DNA from: an uncultured Algibacter sp.
GTDB lineage: Bacteria > Bacteroidota > Bacteroidia > Flavobacteriales > Flavobacteriaceae
Direction: 5' to 3'
Assembly (NCBI RefSeq): GCF_905480415.1
Contig: NZ_CAJQQI010000107.1
Coordinates: forward strand, 1-37,542
DNA length: 37,542 bases
Below, in pieces: positions 28,220 to 36,969 of the stretch (its first letter is position 1; each line of letters starts with the position of its first letter). Below the pieces are notes generated by a model. That model searched no databases and was not told the DNA's origin. It worked only from the letters and a program-made list of their open reading frames with translations. A program made the translations under genes and the position numbers.

Positions 28220-28253
28220 AGAAAAGCCACTGCATTTTTGCAGTGGCTTTTCT
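28220..28253. terminator. Bidirectional terminator between the cupin and pdhC genes
   Basis: AGAAAAGCCACTGCA (28220-28234) and TGCAGTGGCTTTTCT (28239-28253) form a perfect 15-bp stem with a 4-nt T loop. It stands between two convergent genes and the A/T-rich ends suit both directions. Confidence 0.9.
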
Positions 28254-31634: not shown

Positions 31635-31668
31635 AAAAAAACTATTGCTAATTAGCAATAGTTTTTTT
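31635..31668 (-). terminator. Terminator after porV
   Basis: A perfect palindrome with 17-nt arms: the A run plus ACTATTGCTAA is followed by TTAGCAATAGT plus a T run. In the minus direction it lies 20 bp after the porV stop and has the A-tract, stem and T-tract order of an intrinsic terminator. Confidence 0.85.
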
Positions 31669-31688: not shown

Positions 31689-32891
31689 CTAATATTCATT
31701 ATACTCGCCAGCACCAATATTAAACGTTAACGAGAAACGTAAGGTGTTTTCTAAAGGACTTTGTACTTTGGATGCAGAAAACAAGTACGACAAATCTATA
31801 TTTACAACATTTGCCTTAAATCCAGCTCCTAACGCTAAGAATTTTCTAGCGCCTTTATCTTCACTCTCATTAAAATAACCTGCTCTAAACGCAAATGAAT
31901 CTTGGTATAAATATTCTGCACTAAGTGCCCAAGTAAACTCTTTTAATTCCTCACTAAACCCATCAGGTGCATCACCAAATGACTGGAACATTCCAGATAA
32001 AAAGCTTACATCCGGATCTTGCCCTTCAACAATTATTGTTGATTCATCACTGTCTTGATTTCCATCGCCATCAGTATCTACAAAACCATAAATAGGTGGT
32101 GTTGGAACCAATAGTTTAGCTATTTCTGCTGTAACAGCTATTTTATTATAATCATCAAAAATAAAATCAAATCCTGCTCCTAATCTTAAGTTAGTAGGTT
32201 GAAAATTTTCTTGCCCGCCTTCATCATATTTAAATTTTGGACCAATGTTCTGAATTGCGAATCCTGCTCTCCAACGCCCATTAAAATCGCTATATGCTTC
32301 CTCTTCACTTTGATAATATCCAGAAATATCGACACCAAAAGTACTCGCAGGTGTTGCATCGCCATCCACCCCATCTAATCTTAAATCTGAACGCAAGTAG
32401 CGCATCGCTACAGACATACCAAATTGATCTGATAAACGTAGTGCATATGATGCATCAACAGTTAACTCGTTTGGTCTTTGTATTAATGCTTCCGAAAATT
32501 CATCAGTAACAAATTCTATATCACCTAACGAAAAATATTTTAAACTAACTGCAAATGCGCTACGTTCATCAATTCTATTGAAGTAAGTAACATTTCCTAA
32601 AAAAATATCATTCACTAATTTACTCAAGTAAGGCGTGTAACTTACCCCAAGACCTGATTTAGCTTCAGAAAACACATATTTTGATGAGTTCCATTGTTGT
32701 GAAAAGGCATCAACTGATGTTGCAACTCCCATATCTCCCAGGGCAGCTGCCCTAGCATCAGGAGCAATTAGTAAAAAAGGGACTCCTGTGGTGATAACCC
32801 TTCTATCTTGATTAGGAAAAATGACAGTTTCTTGTGCACTAGCTTTCAAAATAAAAGCAAAGGCTAACAATAGTAATATTTGATTCTTCAT
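31689..32891 (-). CDS. porV: Type IX secretion outer-membrane protein PorV
   Basis: PorV (LptO) is a 14-strand outer-membrane barrel that carries cargo from the SprA translocon to the PorU sortase. The 400-residue protein has a signal peptide ending KASAQ at residue 20. Next come the conserved segment ITTGVPFLLIAPDARAAALGDMGVATS, then QQWNSSKYVF, and a series of amphipathic strands to the C-terminus, which ends in LRFSLTFNIGAGEYNEY. A loop rich in Asp (VDTDGDGNQDSDES, about residues 270-283) looks like a calcium-binding repeat of the thrombospondin type 3 kind. The gene has its own TATATTTG -7 element 19 bp upstream and is followed by a terminator, so it can be expressed apart from porU. Confidence 0.95.
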   Translation of the reverse strand: MKNQILLLLAFAFILKASAQETVIFPNQDRRVITTGVPFLLIAPDARAAALGDMGVATSVDAFSQQWNSSKYVFSEAKSGLGVSYTPYLSKLVNDIFLGNVTYFNRIDERSAFAVSLKYFSLGDIEFVTDEFSEALIQRPNELTVDASYALRLSDQFGMSVAMRYLRSDLRLDGVDGDATPASTFGVDISGYYQSEEEAYSDFNGRWRAGFAIQNIGPKFKYDEGGQENFQPTNLRLGAGFDFIFDDYNKIAVTAEIAKLLVPTPPIYGFVDTDGDGNQDSDESTIIVEGQDPDVSFLSGMFQSFGDAPDGFSEELKEFTWALSAEYLYQDSFAFRAGYFNESEDKGARKFLALGAGFKANVVNIDLSYLFSASKVQSPLENTLRFSLTFNIGAGEYNEY

Positions 32892-32909: not shown

Positions 32910-32917
32910 CAAATATA
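32910..32917 (-). promoter_or_regulatory. -7 promoter element for porV
   Basis: The minus strand reads TATATTTG, a perfect TAnnTTTG, predicting a leader of about 15 nt. It lies between the long palindrome and porV, so porV need not depend on read-through from porU. Confidence 0.5.
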
Positions 32918-32929
32918 ATTTTTTATTAG

Positions 32930-33091
32930 ATAACTCATCTTGACTTTTTCCATTTCCTAAAAAAAGGCTAAAATTCGCTCATATTTCGTTACTTTTTTTA
33001 TTCATAGCGGTGCTATGGCTTTCAAAAAGTGTCTCATCTGTAAAAATTTTATCTCGTTTTCGGTTAAAAACAAAAAGTCAAGATGAGTTAT
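32930..33091. repeat. 162-bp imperfect palindrome with 20-bp perfect arms
   Basis: ATAACTCATCTTGACTTTTT (32930-32949) is repeated in perfect inverse at 33072-33091. The exact centre (33010) is a small hairpin, CATAGC-GGT-GCTATG (33003-33017). Between arms and centre the halves are partly complementary, with shared TAAAATT and ACTTTTT blocks. The porU stop codon (33088-33090) is inside the right arm. The whole fills the porU-porV gap upstream of the porV promoter. It looks like a non-autonomous mobile palindrome (MITE or large REP), or a structured RNA at the 3' end of porU. No target-site duplication is clear. Confidence 0.75.
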
Positions 33092-36000
33092 AGTATTACA
33101 AGTTTCTCAATTTTTTCCACTGTTTTATTTAATAAGCTTGAATGTACTTTAAGCTTATAAATATAAACCCCTTTACCTATTTTATCTCCAAAATCATCTC
33201 TTCCATCCCAAACCATATCTCTAGATAAAGAACTCGTCGTTTTAATACCTCCTGTGGTTTGTCCATTTAAAGTTCTAACCAACTTCCCTGAAACAGTGAA
33301 TATCTGTATAGAAACGTCTAAAGGTTCAGAACTATTGTGGTTAAACCAAAATTCTGTATAATTAACAAACGGATTTGGATAATTAAGCACATTATTAATC
33401 ACTAAACTTTGGTCTTTATCAAATACAATAAACTGTATTTCAGATATTGAAGAGTTATTATAAACATCCCAAGCTTTTAAAGTTAATGTATGTAACCCTG
33501 GCTCTAAATCTCTAAACGGAAAACTTACTGTCCCTTTAGTATATTCGTCAACATCTGTTTGGTAATAGTCGTTTAAAACAAACGGATTCGTTTCATCACC
33601 ATCAATAATGGCTACTATATCATGACCAATACCACTTGCCGTGTTTATACCATTCGTATCTTCCATTTTTGCTAATAATGTGGGCGATTCATTAGTAATA
33701 CCACCTGTAACAAAATTTTCATCATTCATATAAAGCGTGATCACTGGTCCTGTATTATCTTCAGGTGCATTTTCATTTAAGCCCCCAATTCTAACCGTAT
33801 TTATAGTTGCTCCAGCTTGATCTTCAGTTGAAGATTCATTTTTAGAATAGAAACTCACTTTACCAAAACCTACTGGAATACCAATATCCTTTGGTACAAC
33901 AAAATCAAATTCAAATTGACCGTTTTTCACTGAGGCTTGCCCTCTAAATATTATTTCACCGAGGGTAGTGAAATCTAATTTTATAACTTCACCATTTTGC
34001 CTTATACCATCATTAGCTAGTGTTTGCCTGCTAATGCCCTTATCATAGATAGTCGTTGATAATGTACCACTGTAATTATTTAGAAGATTACCAGAAACAT
34101 CGGTAACTTCTCCTGCTAACTTCACATAACTCAATGCTTTTAAAGTATCTGTTGCCTGCGCAATAGGGACATCATTAATTTTCGTGAGTTTAATATTTGG
34201 TTTTGAAAAGGCTAATTTCATGGCTGGATCACCAATAAAAAAGACCAAGTTTTTTTGACTGTTTCCAGAAAGTGACGGGTCGTTTTTTGCTAACCTTAAA
34301 GCTTCTGCCATAGTAGGATATTCGTCATCATTATACGTATCATTATCGCTATAAGAAAACAAATATTGTCCTAACTCTCTGTTAAAGGTAATTCCGAAAT
34401 TCACAAAAACTTGTCGAGTCGTCGTAATTAATCCCACGGCTCCCGTTTCCTTATTCCAAAATGTAAATTCTCCTGCGGTTTCTCTAAATGGATTGTCAAA
34501 TCTTGTAAATTCGCAAGTTACAGTTACAAAACAATTGAGTTTACAAAAATTACGAAACCCAGTAATATCAGGCTTTAACAAAATGCGTTCTTGTGCTAAA
34601 CCTTCTTCGCCACCATGGCCAAAATAATTCACTACCAAGGCACCATTATCAATGGCATTAACTATTTCGTTAGTCACTATAGGGTATCTATCTCCTCCTG
34701 CTGACGATTCTTGCTGAAAAGCATCTGAATGAACTTTTGTTACATTCATAAAAGGCTTTTCTTGCGATATTAAATCGCCTATAGCATCTGTAGTCTCTTG
34801 CAAAGCACCATAAAGTTTATCATCATTATCATCAGAAATTACTAAAACACTGTTTCGCCAGCTTCCATAAGCTTCTTTAGCATAGTAAGATTCGATTTTA
34901 TCAACCATTTCTTTTCCTCTTTGAGGCGTGTCTGCTAAAATTCGACCCACAGCAATGTCTAATCTATTACTTGAAATCATAGTCCCTTCATTATCATCCA
35001 TCATCCCATAAAAATCATCAGAAACAAATGAGGTGGCTAAACTAAAACTACTATATGAGTACCAAGAAGGAACAATGTTGGTGTTGTTTCGAATACGATC
35101 TTTATAATCATAAGATCCATCACCGAATAAACATAAATATTTTATCCTATTTTCTGGCGTACTCGCATTATCGTAAACATATTTTACCATATTTCTGATA
35201 GCACCAATATCTTGATTTCCCGAACTAAATTCGTTGTAAATCTCATCTAGACCAACAACCTTGACATTTAAATCGTATTGATTTCGATTAATTTGAGCTA
35301 AACGTTCGGCATCATTCAACATGTTATTTGGTGTTACGATAATATAATCGACATCTTGAAAACTTCCTTGGGCATTTTGAAAAATAGTCCCTTTTATATT
35401 TTGATTATTAATTATGGTTTTCGAATCAAATTTAGGTTCAAAATAGTCTAAAGGAGATACTGCAACATAGCTTTTTAAACTTCCGAGAGCCGCTGTAAAA
35501 CTTAAGGTTGAAGTTTCATCTGTATTCACATAATTTGAAACGTTATAACTATCCGTTACTTCCCAAATTTCTGAAAGTGCAGACGTATTCGTCATATTAT
35601 ATTGTACAATACCGGAAGTTGATGCAACATCTTTGTTTTTAAACAGAAACTGTTTATTATCAAAGTTTAATTTACGGGTGGCTTCAATACCTATTAAATC
35701 TAAATAACCGATAGTACTTGGGTTCCCTAAATTATCAAAGTCCAGACCGACCGTGATCTTGGACGTATTCACATCTACACGACCACGGTAAGAATTCCCA
35801 TTAGCTAAAGTTGGTGTGGATACACCCCTAACAAATATAGATGACACGGCAACATTATTAACACTTACATTCATTTGACTATCACTCCTTGTCGCTGTTG
35901 CCACAGAAACAGTTAAATCTACGGGTTCTGAAGTCACTAAATCCGGAAAATTAAATTCAAATTCCTTAGAACTATCCACATCAAATTTATCTCCAAACCA

Positions 36001-36969
36001 ACGCCTTCCTAGAGAGATGAGATTATACGCATCAATTTCGTGATATTGATAATCCTGAAAAGTATCAATAACCATATCTATTGTTCCCTCAGGCTGGTTA
36101 AATTGTTGGATGCGTTTTCCATTCCCAGAACTTATATTAATATAATAATATGTTTTATCCGTATAGCAATTTATGTGAGTTCTACTCTCTTGATTGTATT
36201 CTTTAGGGCCTTGAGCGTAAAATAATATATAGTCATTCGTATTAAACTCACCATCTTCTTCACCTACAAATTTTATGGCATTTTCAGGAACATCATAAGG
36301 GTAAGCAACAGAGTTTGAGTAAGGAATCATGCGCCCACCATGACCAAATAATTTAATAGCTCTAGGATCTACAGTATTCACTTTAACACCTAAACGTTGT
36401 AAAAAACTTTTTGATAGTTTAAAAACCCCTGTAGTATCCACATAAAACCTATACCATTCCCCAGAGTTTAAAACGGAATTAGTTACAACTGCTGAAGCCT
36501 TATTGCTTCTTAACAATGCAGATTTGCTATCAGAGCCTTTCTTATAATTTATTTGAAATGAAGTTACTTTTTTATAACCTCCATTTTCATCCTTTATAAT
36601 AGGCGACAGTTGAAAAAAGGTATAAGTCTTATTTCTTGCTACTGAATTTTCTAAGCTGAATACTAATTTATTAGGTATTTTATTTAAATCTAAGTCTTTT
36701 AAATCTACTTTATATATCGACTGATATACAACATTAGTTGCTGTAACTGAAGATTCATTGACCAAGCCTTTCGATTCCCATTGATCTGAAAATACTAAGC
36801 CTTTTTCTAAATCATAATTAAAATATGCTTTATCAAATGAAGGCACCTCCATTGAAAAATTTTCTACTGAAAGCGTTTGAGCCTTCTCCCAAACTAAATT
36901 GTATCGCTTTTGTTGCGCATGTAACCCAGCTGAAATAATCAACAGTAAAACTAAAATATTCTTTTTCAT
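33088..36969 (-). CDS. porU: Type IX secretion sortase PorU
   Basis: PorU is the cell-surface cysteine peptidase that removes the C-terminal signal of type IX cargo and attaches it to the surface. The 1293-residue protein has a signal peptide ending SAGLHAQ near residue 19, a long N-terminal beta region, and a C25 gingipain-type catalytic domain. The catalytic His is in NYFGHGGEEGLAQE near residue 785 and the Cys in VTVTCEFTRFDNPFRETAGEF near 818. At the C-terminus is a sorting-type domain: NYPNPFVNYTEFWF, SGKLVRTLNG, WDGRDDFGDKIGKGVYIYKL and the final EKIEKLVIL. A TATTTTTG -7 element lies at 37033-37040, and gldJ diverges from it. Confidence 0.97.
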   Translation of the reverse strand: MKKNILVLLLIISAGLHAQQKRYNLVWEKAQTLSVENFSMEVPSFDKAYFNYDLEKGLVFSDQWESKGLVNESSVTATNVVYQSIYKVDLKDLDLNKIPNKLVFSLENSVARNKTYTFFQLSPIIKDENGGYKKVTSFQINYKKGSDSKSALLRSNKASAVVTNSVLNSGEWYRFYVDTTGVFKLSKSFLQRLGVKVNTVDPRAIKLFGHGGRMIPYSNSVAYPYDVPENAIKFVGEEDGEFNTNDYILFYAQGPKEYNQESRTHINCYTDKTYYYINISSGNGKRIQQFNQPEGTIDMVIDTFQDYQYHEIDAYNLISLGRRWFGDKFDVDSSKEFEFNFPDLVTSEPVDLTVSVATATRSDSQMNVSVNNVAVSSIFVRGVSTPTLANGNSYRGRVDVNTSKITVGLDFDNLGNPSTIGYLDLIGIEATRKLNFDNKQFLFKNKDVASTSGIVQYNMTNTSALSEIWEVTDSYNVSNYVNTDETSTLSFTAALGSLKSYVAVSPLDYFEPKFDSKTIINNQNIKGTIFQNAQGSFQDVDYIIVTPNNMLNDAERLAQINRNQYDLNVKVVGLDEIYNEFSSGNQDIGAIRNMVKYVYDNASTPENRIKYLCLFGDGSYDYKDRIRNNTNIVPSWYSYSSFSLATSFVSDDFYGMMDDNEGTMISSNRLDIAVGRILADTPQRGKEMVDKIESYYAKEAYGSWRNSVLVISDDNDDKLYGALQETTDAIGDLISQEKPFMNVTKVHSDAFQQESSAGGDRYPIVTNEIVNAIDNGALVVNYFGHGGEEGLAQERILLKPDITGFRNFCKLNCFVTVTCEFTRFDNPFRETAGEFTFWNKETGAVGLITTTRQVFVNFGITFNRELGQYLFSYSDNDTYNDDEYPTMAEALRLAKNDPSLSGNSQKNLVFFIGDPAMKLAFSKPNIKLTKINDVPIAQATDTLKALSYVKLAGEVTDVSGNLLNNYSGTLSTTIYDKGISRQTLANDGIRQNGEVIKLDFTTLGEIIFRGQASVKNGQFEFDFVVPKDIGIPVGFGKVSFYSKNESSTEDQAGATINTVRIGGLNENAPEDNTGPVITLYMNDENFVTGGITNESPTLLAKMEDTNGINTASGIGHDIVAIIDGDETNPFVLNDYYQTDVDEYTKGTVSFPFRDLEPGLHTLTLKAWDVYNNSSISEIQFIVFDKDQSLVINNVLNYPNPFVNYTEFWFNHNSSEPLDVSIQIFTVSGKLVRTLNGQTTGGIKTTSSLSRDMVWDGRDDFGDKIGKGVYIYKLKVHSSLLNKTVEKIEKLVIL

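Follow-up and report, generated by a model that had tools for sequence, protein, structure and literature searches.

A dispersed family of non-autonomous transposable elements with probable IS5-type ends in Flavobacteriaceae, with a copy at the porU stop codon of an uncultured Algibacter

The window, the 37,542-nucleotide stretch of an uncultured Algibacter sp. contig that was analysed as a whole, carries a long palindrome between two secretion genes. These are porU and porV, as the original prediction had named them, and both products score well above the respective NCBIfam cut-offs (PorU, NF033707, 1387 bits against 420; PorV, NF033710, 540 bits against 250). The palindrome arms, at 32930-32949 and 33072-33091, are perfect reverse complements of 20 bp separated by a 122-bp spacer, a geometry that held when the coordinates were rechecked and that lies far beyond chance: it is the sole perfect 20-bp inverted repeat of the window at loops of up to 160 bp, and in 100 windows resampled from a Markov-1 model perfect arms of 20 bp never arose (0), while those of 18 bp arose at a rate of 0.02 per window. 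When up to 3 mismatches are allowed, the 18-base core of the arm is found at two places in the window, both of them the palindrome arms, against an expected 0.10. While the unit does lie between porU and porV, it does not fill the whole gap as had been proposed, covering about 157 of the 196 nt from the porU stop to the porV start; the porU TAA is indeed contained in one of the arms on the minus strand, and the small central hairpin, which was said to share its exact centre with the arms, is off by half a base. Coordinates are collected in Table 1, where the unit is listed under the reading that we develop below, that of a non-autonomous transposable element (MITE).

Table 1. Positions in the window of the palindromic element, its parts, its flanks and the neighbouring genes.
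Feature	Position	Strand	Remark
MITE copy, 160 bp	32931..33090	-	modal family length; orientation of family alignment A1
Element proper, porU-side terminal base probably lost	32931-33089		most economical reading of the empty site
porV-side terminal inverted repeat TAACTCATCTTGACTTTTT	32931..32949	+	family consensus starts with G
porU-side terminal inverted repeat	33072..33090	-	
Interior foldback	32950..33071	.	A1 columns 43-53/113-123: most two-sided changes across subfamilies
Central hairpin CATAGC-GGT-GCTATG	33003..33017	.	partly conserved: A1 columns 77-80 with 85-89
Putative target duplication, porU side: ATA (coding strand TAT)	33090..33092	+	read from the empty site
Putative target duplication, porV side: AGA, one change from ATA	32928..32930	+	read from the empty site
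porU stop codon TAA, probable insertion point of the element (T^AA)	33088..33090	-	
porU	33088..36969	-	NF033707
porV	31689..32891	-	NF033710

The 170 nt around the unit fold at -45.3 kcal/mol on the minus strand (z -6.6) and at -43.6 kcal/mol on the plus strand (z -7.5), equalled by 0 of 200 shuffles in either case, but the interior of the window copy taken by itself reaches a folding z of -1.6, with 15 of 200 shuffles equally good, and the folding of the unit is owed mostly to its arms. Rfam gave no match at gathering score over the unit or in 12 further loci with copies, and a relaxed threshold over the unit brought up microRNA-precursor hairpins only, far below their gathering scores. Elsewhere in the window, a Flavo-1 RNA (RF01705) is found at 294-444 on the plus strand with 43.9 bits (cut-off 42), its loop measuring 80 nt against 11 in the model; a link between this RNA and the palindrome, hinted at by a common GATTGAAG string, found no support, with 0 matches in 12 loci. 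Two other perfect inverted repeats near gene ends, at 31635-31668 (16-bp arms, 2-nt loop) and at 28220-28253 (15-bp arms, 4-nt loop), are possibly ordinary terminators.

The porU-porV gap was compared across 12 genomes, namely the own genome, nine congeners and two others (G014 and G015), which remain from the 20 genomes with a PorU match when G011 and seven order-level genomes are left out. In all 12, the PorU C-terminus reads ...KLVIL and is followed by TAA. The element is found at this position in its own genome only, and all 11 relatives compared have an empty site, the gap measuring 196 nt in the own genome, 33-34 nt in five of the others, 66 nt in one and 95-97 nt in five. Five congeners (G001, G003, G004, G006 and G007; loci L317, L325, L319, L321 and L316) have a gap about 60 bp above the short form, and their longer gaps bear no sign of MITE ends. 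Upstream of porV, the string TATATTTG (32910-32917, minus strand), which we take to fit the Bacteroidota -7 box TAnnTTTG, is present in all 12 genomes compared, and since the element lies 13 bp upstream of this string, it replaces whatever occupied the -33 position.

The closest empty sequence reads ...ATACT(A/G)TAATAAAAAATTATATTTG and the occupied one in the window ...ATACTAT^AACTC...GAGTT^ATCTAATAAAAAATTATATTTG. The pair is explained with the fewest steps if the element entered behind the T of the TAA stop and duplicated TAT, after which the porU side would have lost its terminal G and the porV side acquired two substitutions. Another copy of the family (L231) has exactly the T|GA stop that such an insertion would give. 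The position of the stop codon is ancestral, the element having landed in the stop and brought no new C-terminus.

The unit is dispersed, with further copies in the own and related genomes. Contig C35 of the own genome (194 contigs totalling 2.82 Mb, completeness 92.5%) carries a second full copy, 85% identical, whose neighbours are a folP-like gene and one other gene (both named from their translations), and a shortened copy lies on contig C68. The C35 copy (G000:C35:7724-7881, L002) occupies the same site as a copy in another genus (G015:C37, L031), with shared flanks; some insertions are old or shared. Among 99 genomes, comprising the own genome and relatives, 15 have a match, copy counts being lower bounds because 8 candidates per genome were scored; the matches outside the own family (G061, G064, G073 and G084) are short and look like chance. 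Within the family, counting the own genome and genus, 48 of 397 genomes and 38 of 237 genera have the MITE end with at most one mismatch; the three arm-richest genomes hold 43, 51 and 57 arms, and a reversed-end control gave 0 matches in every genome listed. Named genomes were also scanned for pairs of perfect 17-bp arms with 112-136 bp between them, which retrieved 81 stretches from Aquimarina, Flavivirga, Snuella, Maribacter, Arenibacter, Confluentibacter, Galbibacter, Kordia, Sinomicrobium, Wocania, Aestuariivivens and further relatives; these, minus one (L248), make up the set of 80 copies used hereafter. One genome (G058) additionally has shorter classes with the same ends, of 47-51, 73-74 and 81-85 bp. 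Viral contigs held 0 copies with perfect arms, and plasmids and phages gave matches of 27 and 31 nt only.

The family ends in GAACTCATCTTGACTTTTT with a terminal inverted repeat of 19 bp. Including terminal bases, 49 of the 80 copies are 160 bp long, 21 are 161 bp and the other 10 span 157-162 bp, for copies found by perfect 17-bp arms with a search pattern that admitted 150-174. An exact 3-bp target duplication flanks 58 of 78 independent copies (shuffled mean 14.1, maximum 26 in 2000 shuffles; one duplicate locus and one copy with a short flank were left out), with at most 6 of 78 at other offsets, and the duplicated triplets are mostly ANT or TAT (ATT 21, AAT 16, TAT 6, ACT 5). The exact duplication is missing from 20 of the 78, and in the window copy it is likewise inexact (AGA/ATA, 2 of 3 bases). 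In four of six genomes tested, some copies share at least 98% identity while having unlike flanks, accounting for 16 of 36 pairs in Snuella, 6 of 66 and 3 of 21 in two Aquimarina and 10 of 10 in Flavivirga rizhaonensis, with 0 of 6 in Flavivirga amylovorans and 0 of 3 in Arenibacter, and fully identical copies are found at unrelated sites inside single genomes.

None of the 80 copies lies inside an ORF of at least 100 aa, though ORFs span about 74% of the loci, and the 160-bp window copy holds no gene itself. Where both neighbours are available (63 copies, 17 having no ORF on one side), they are arranged in tandem in 41 cases, convergently in 16 and divergently in 6, against 135 tandem, 29 convergent and 29 divergent control gaps. 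A role in ending genes was considered and found weak, as 3 of 73 neighbouring gene 3' ends stop inside the element by a crude ORF caller.

A candidate source of the transposition machinery is provided by insertion sequences with similar ends. In one genome assembled as one contig (G172), a 913-bp unit with ends GAAGTCATCTTGACTTTTT and GAACTCATCTTGACTTTTT, one exact and the other with one change relative to the MITE ends, encloses an IS5-like transposase gene split between two frames; the unit is flanked by TAT and TAA, which match at 2 of 3 bases, and this decayed copy scores 49.3 bits with NF033580, below the cut-off of 110. A 538-bp remnant in G119 has the left end GAAGTCATCTTGACTTTTT, a right end with 3 mismatches to the consensus and an ATT duplication. 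Four further G172 copies, of 927-929 bp, carry an intact frame of about 277 aa with DUF4096 and DDE domains, and their NF033580 scores of 119.4-120.8 bits lie above the same cut-off, which places the presumed partner in the IS5 family. Their ends start GAAGTGATTTAAAC and GAACTCATTTAAAC (GAAGTCATTTAAAC in one copy) and are less similar to those of the MITE, and duplications are present in three of the four (ATT, ATT, ATA); among related insertion sequences with both ends placed, 8 of 13 have an exact 3-bp duplication. The nearest named relative of the G172 transposase is that of ISBf6 of Bacteroides, at 62% identity, and no solved structure was matched by its sequence.

Because both the ends and the duplication length match, an IS5-type transposase is the probable partner of the MITE. 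The genomes examined, including the own one, G172 and Snuella G209, contained no intact insertion sequence with exactly the MITE ends. The G172 type was not found in the own genome, at 92.5% completeness, and Snuella G209, where the MITE copies look recent, lacked it too. A separate set of 80 loci (L088-L167, 8 genomes) gave no convincing autonomous copy, the decayed one of G172 being found later. Five identical IS5-type copies in G399 (L338, L343, L345, L348 and L351) were rejected as partner on account of their other ends (AACCTGAGTTCGATTA...), as were the IS5 matches of G209, G190 and G058, which within 900 bp on either side have at least 7 mismatches in 19 to the MITE ends.

Overall, fixed terminal inverted repeats, target duplication and dispersal with empty sites are combined in a unit that contains no transposase and has its ends in common with a decayed IS5-type element, the features by which a MITE is recognized, and the empty site and the near-identical copies are the footprint of its movement. 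We therefore consider it very likely (probability about 0.93) that the unit is a MITE of about 160 bp with IS5-type ends and not a conserved 3' structure of porU; the earlier suggestion that a mobile palindrome had come to rest at the end of the gene is strongly supported by the copies in the own genome, the 3-bp duplications, the 11 relatives with an empty site and the insertion sequence that shares the MITE ends. In the corresponding mechanism, an IS5-type transposase acting in trans would join the element into the TAT spanning the porU stop (T^AA), and as the element starts with GA, the preceding T would complete a TGA stop at the same place, so that PorU would never have been extended; loss of the terminal G at a later time would then produce the present TAA. 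Against this reading stand the window copy itself, which has no exact duplication (AGA/ATA), needs one lost base and two substitutions and whose interior folding alone is not significant, the 20 of 78 copies without an exact duplication, the decay and imperfect ends and flanks of the insertion sequence in G172, and the lack of an insertion sequence of this type in the own genome and in Snuella G209.

The original prediction had offered as its other option a structured 3' end, that is a terminator or processing site of the porU mRNA that sets the PorU:PorV ratio. The presence of a strong hairpin in an operon gap fits such a role, and RNase III cleavage at the hairpin (Correia) and altered mRNA decay (ERIC) are reported for other MITEs (PMC10969869). 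As a conserved function, however, this role finds no support, given the absence of the unit from the porU-porV gap of all nine congeners and the two further genomes, the dispersal of the same sequence at many other loci and the lack of an intrinsic-terminator pattern at the unit, and we regard it as unlikely. Any effect on porU and porV expression would rather be a by-product of the insertion, a possible consequence for the operon that would not be conserved. A palindrome of the REP/REPIN type, mobilized by a Y1 (RAYT) transposase, would also be palindromic, intergenic and dispersed, but the long fixed ends and the 3-bp target duplication are shared with an IS5-type insertion sequence, and Y1 elements are not known to make a target duplication; we give this origin hardly any credence.

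The interior of the MITE is itself a foldback, with folding z values ranging from -1.1 to -5.4 across 18 copies. Covariation was examined in 19 representatives of less than 88% identity, taken from 81 sequences (the 80 copies and the window). In these, pairing holds in 92.6% of the cells of 22 interior pairs (77.3% when shuffled). Two-sided changes affect 14 of the 22 pairs (9.7 when shuffled, a count reached by 1 of 500 shuffles) and 61 cells (20.3 when shuffled, 4 to 35 in slid versions), values to be read in light of the fact that the shuffles keep relatedness, the slid controls remove part of it and the structure was drawn from the same alignment, which favours the result. A derivation of the interior from insertion sequences was rejected, as the real interiors gave 30 short matches and shuffled ones 21, 25 and 22, the best match being 14 nt long (E 0.001, L177 to L271). 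Of the 329 paired columns at which close copies (1-12 differences) differ, 9 have changed on both sides and still pair; the figures are 884 of 3637 at 13-24 differences and 1033 of 3027 at 25-40, for copy pairs that are not independent. The rarity of two-sided changes between close copies suggests that landed copies decay one side at a time, and the lineages that founded subfamilies would have kept the pairing, the foldback being retained in those still spreading.

Two accounts of this retention can be weighed. We propose, tentatively and with more doubt than confidence, that the element has to maintain its foldback as such, pairing being preserved by two-sided changes across subfamilies with different interiors. 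If true, a hairpin over the whole length of a DDE-type MITE would be selected and a cruciform DNA or RNA hairpin step would matter, serving either movement or harmless landing next to genes, an unexpected outcome since such an element needs only its ends. It is also quite possible, at slightly less than an even chance, that interior pairing is kept not by hairpin selection but by slow arm-to-arm copying (templated quasi-palindrome correction), as the same uncommon change is found in both ends at 4 sites in G172 against 0.40 when shuffled (4 of 5000 as high) and at 5 in G119 against 1.87 (126 of 5000 as high). There is, however, no such excess in G058 (3 against 3.71) or G015 (0 against 0.37), and the pooled count of 12 against 6.35 stays below the shuffled maximum of 14; the few two-sided columns in close copies (9 of 329) further argue against copying in a single event, while leaving later correction unaffected. 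Three single copies in G172 (G172:C1:1202474, 3855188 and 3030223) have the same uncommon change at both ends and look like the product of copying from arm to arm.

Comparable elements are known. BrickBuilt and MITEPgRS of Porphyromonas gingivalis, a member of the same phylum, are IS5-related MITEs that resemble the present family in being non-autonomous and intergenic, in having ends that match the IS5 family with no transposase remnant inside and in the existence of paralogous loci with and without the element (PMC4596501). They are set apart by 12-nt ends (GAGACC...), by a report from one genus, by duplications that vary in length and by a minisatellite interior, in contrast to the covarying foldback of fixed length in the Flavobacteriaceae MITE (PMC4596501). 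The ends of ISBf6, GAAGTGATTTAAACTT, and those of the MITE have the frame GAA..-....-..ACTT in common, and Flavobacteriaceae relatives of the ISBf6 group also make 3-bp duplications; ISBf6 and ISBf6-like IS5-family sequences differ, however, in being autonomous and about 930 bp long, and their ends read GATTTAAAC or CATTTAAAC where those of the MITE read CATCTTGAC. ERIC and Correia are likewise small, intergenic and palindromic and extend across several genera or a family, with transcripts that may be processed at the hairpin, but their sequences and hosts are different (PMC10969869). The literature searches listed no paper describing the Flavobacteriaceae repeat family.

The family is a new MITE of a known type, with an unusually exact site in the stop codon described here, and the covarying foldback is its one less ordinary property. 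Flavobacteriaceae thereby gain a repeat family that is widespread, follows a target rule, has a documented empty site and probably depends on a partner of IS5 type, and with it a warning that such palindromes are not to be taken for conserved operon regulators. The covarying interior, finally, offers a simple system in which to ask whether hairpin formation aids the spread or the tolerance of a DDE-type MITE.
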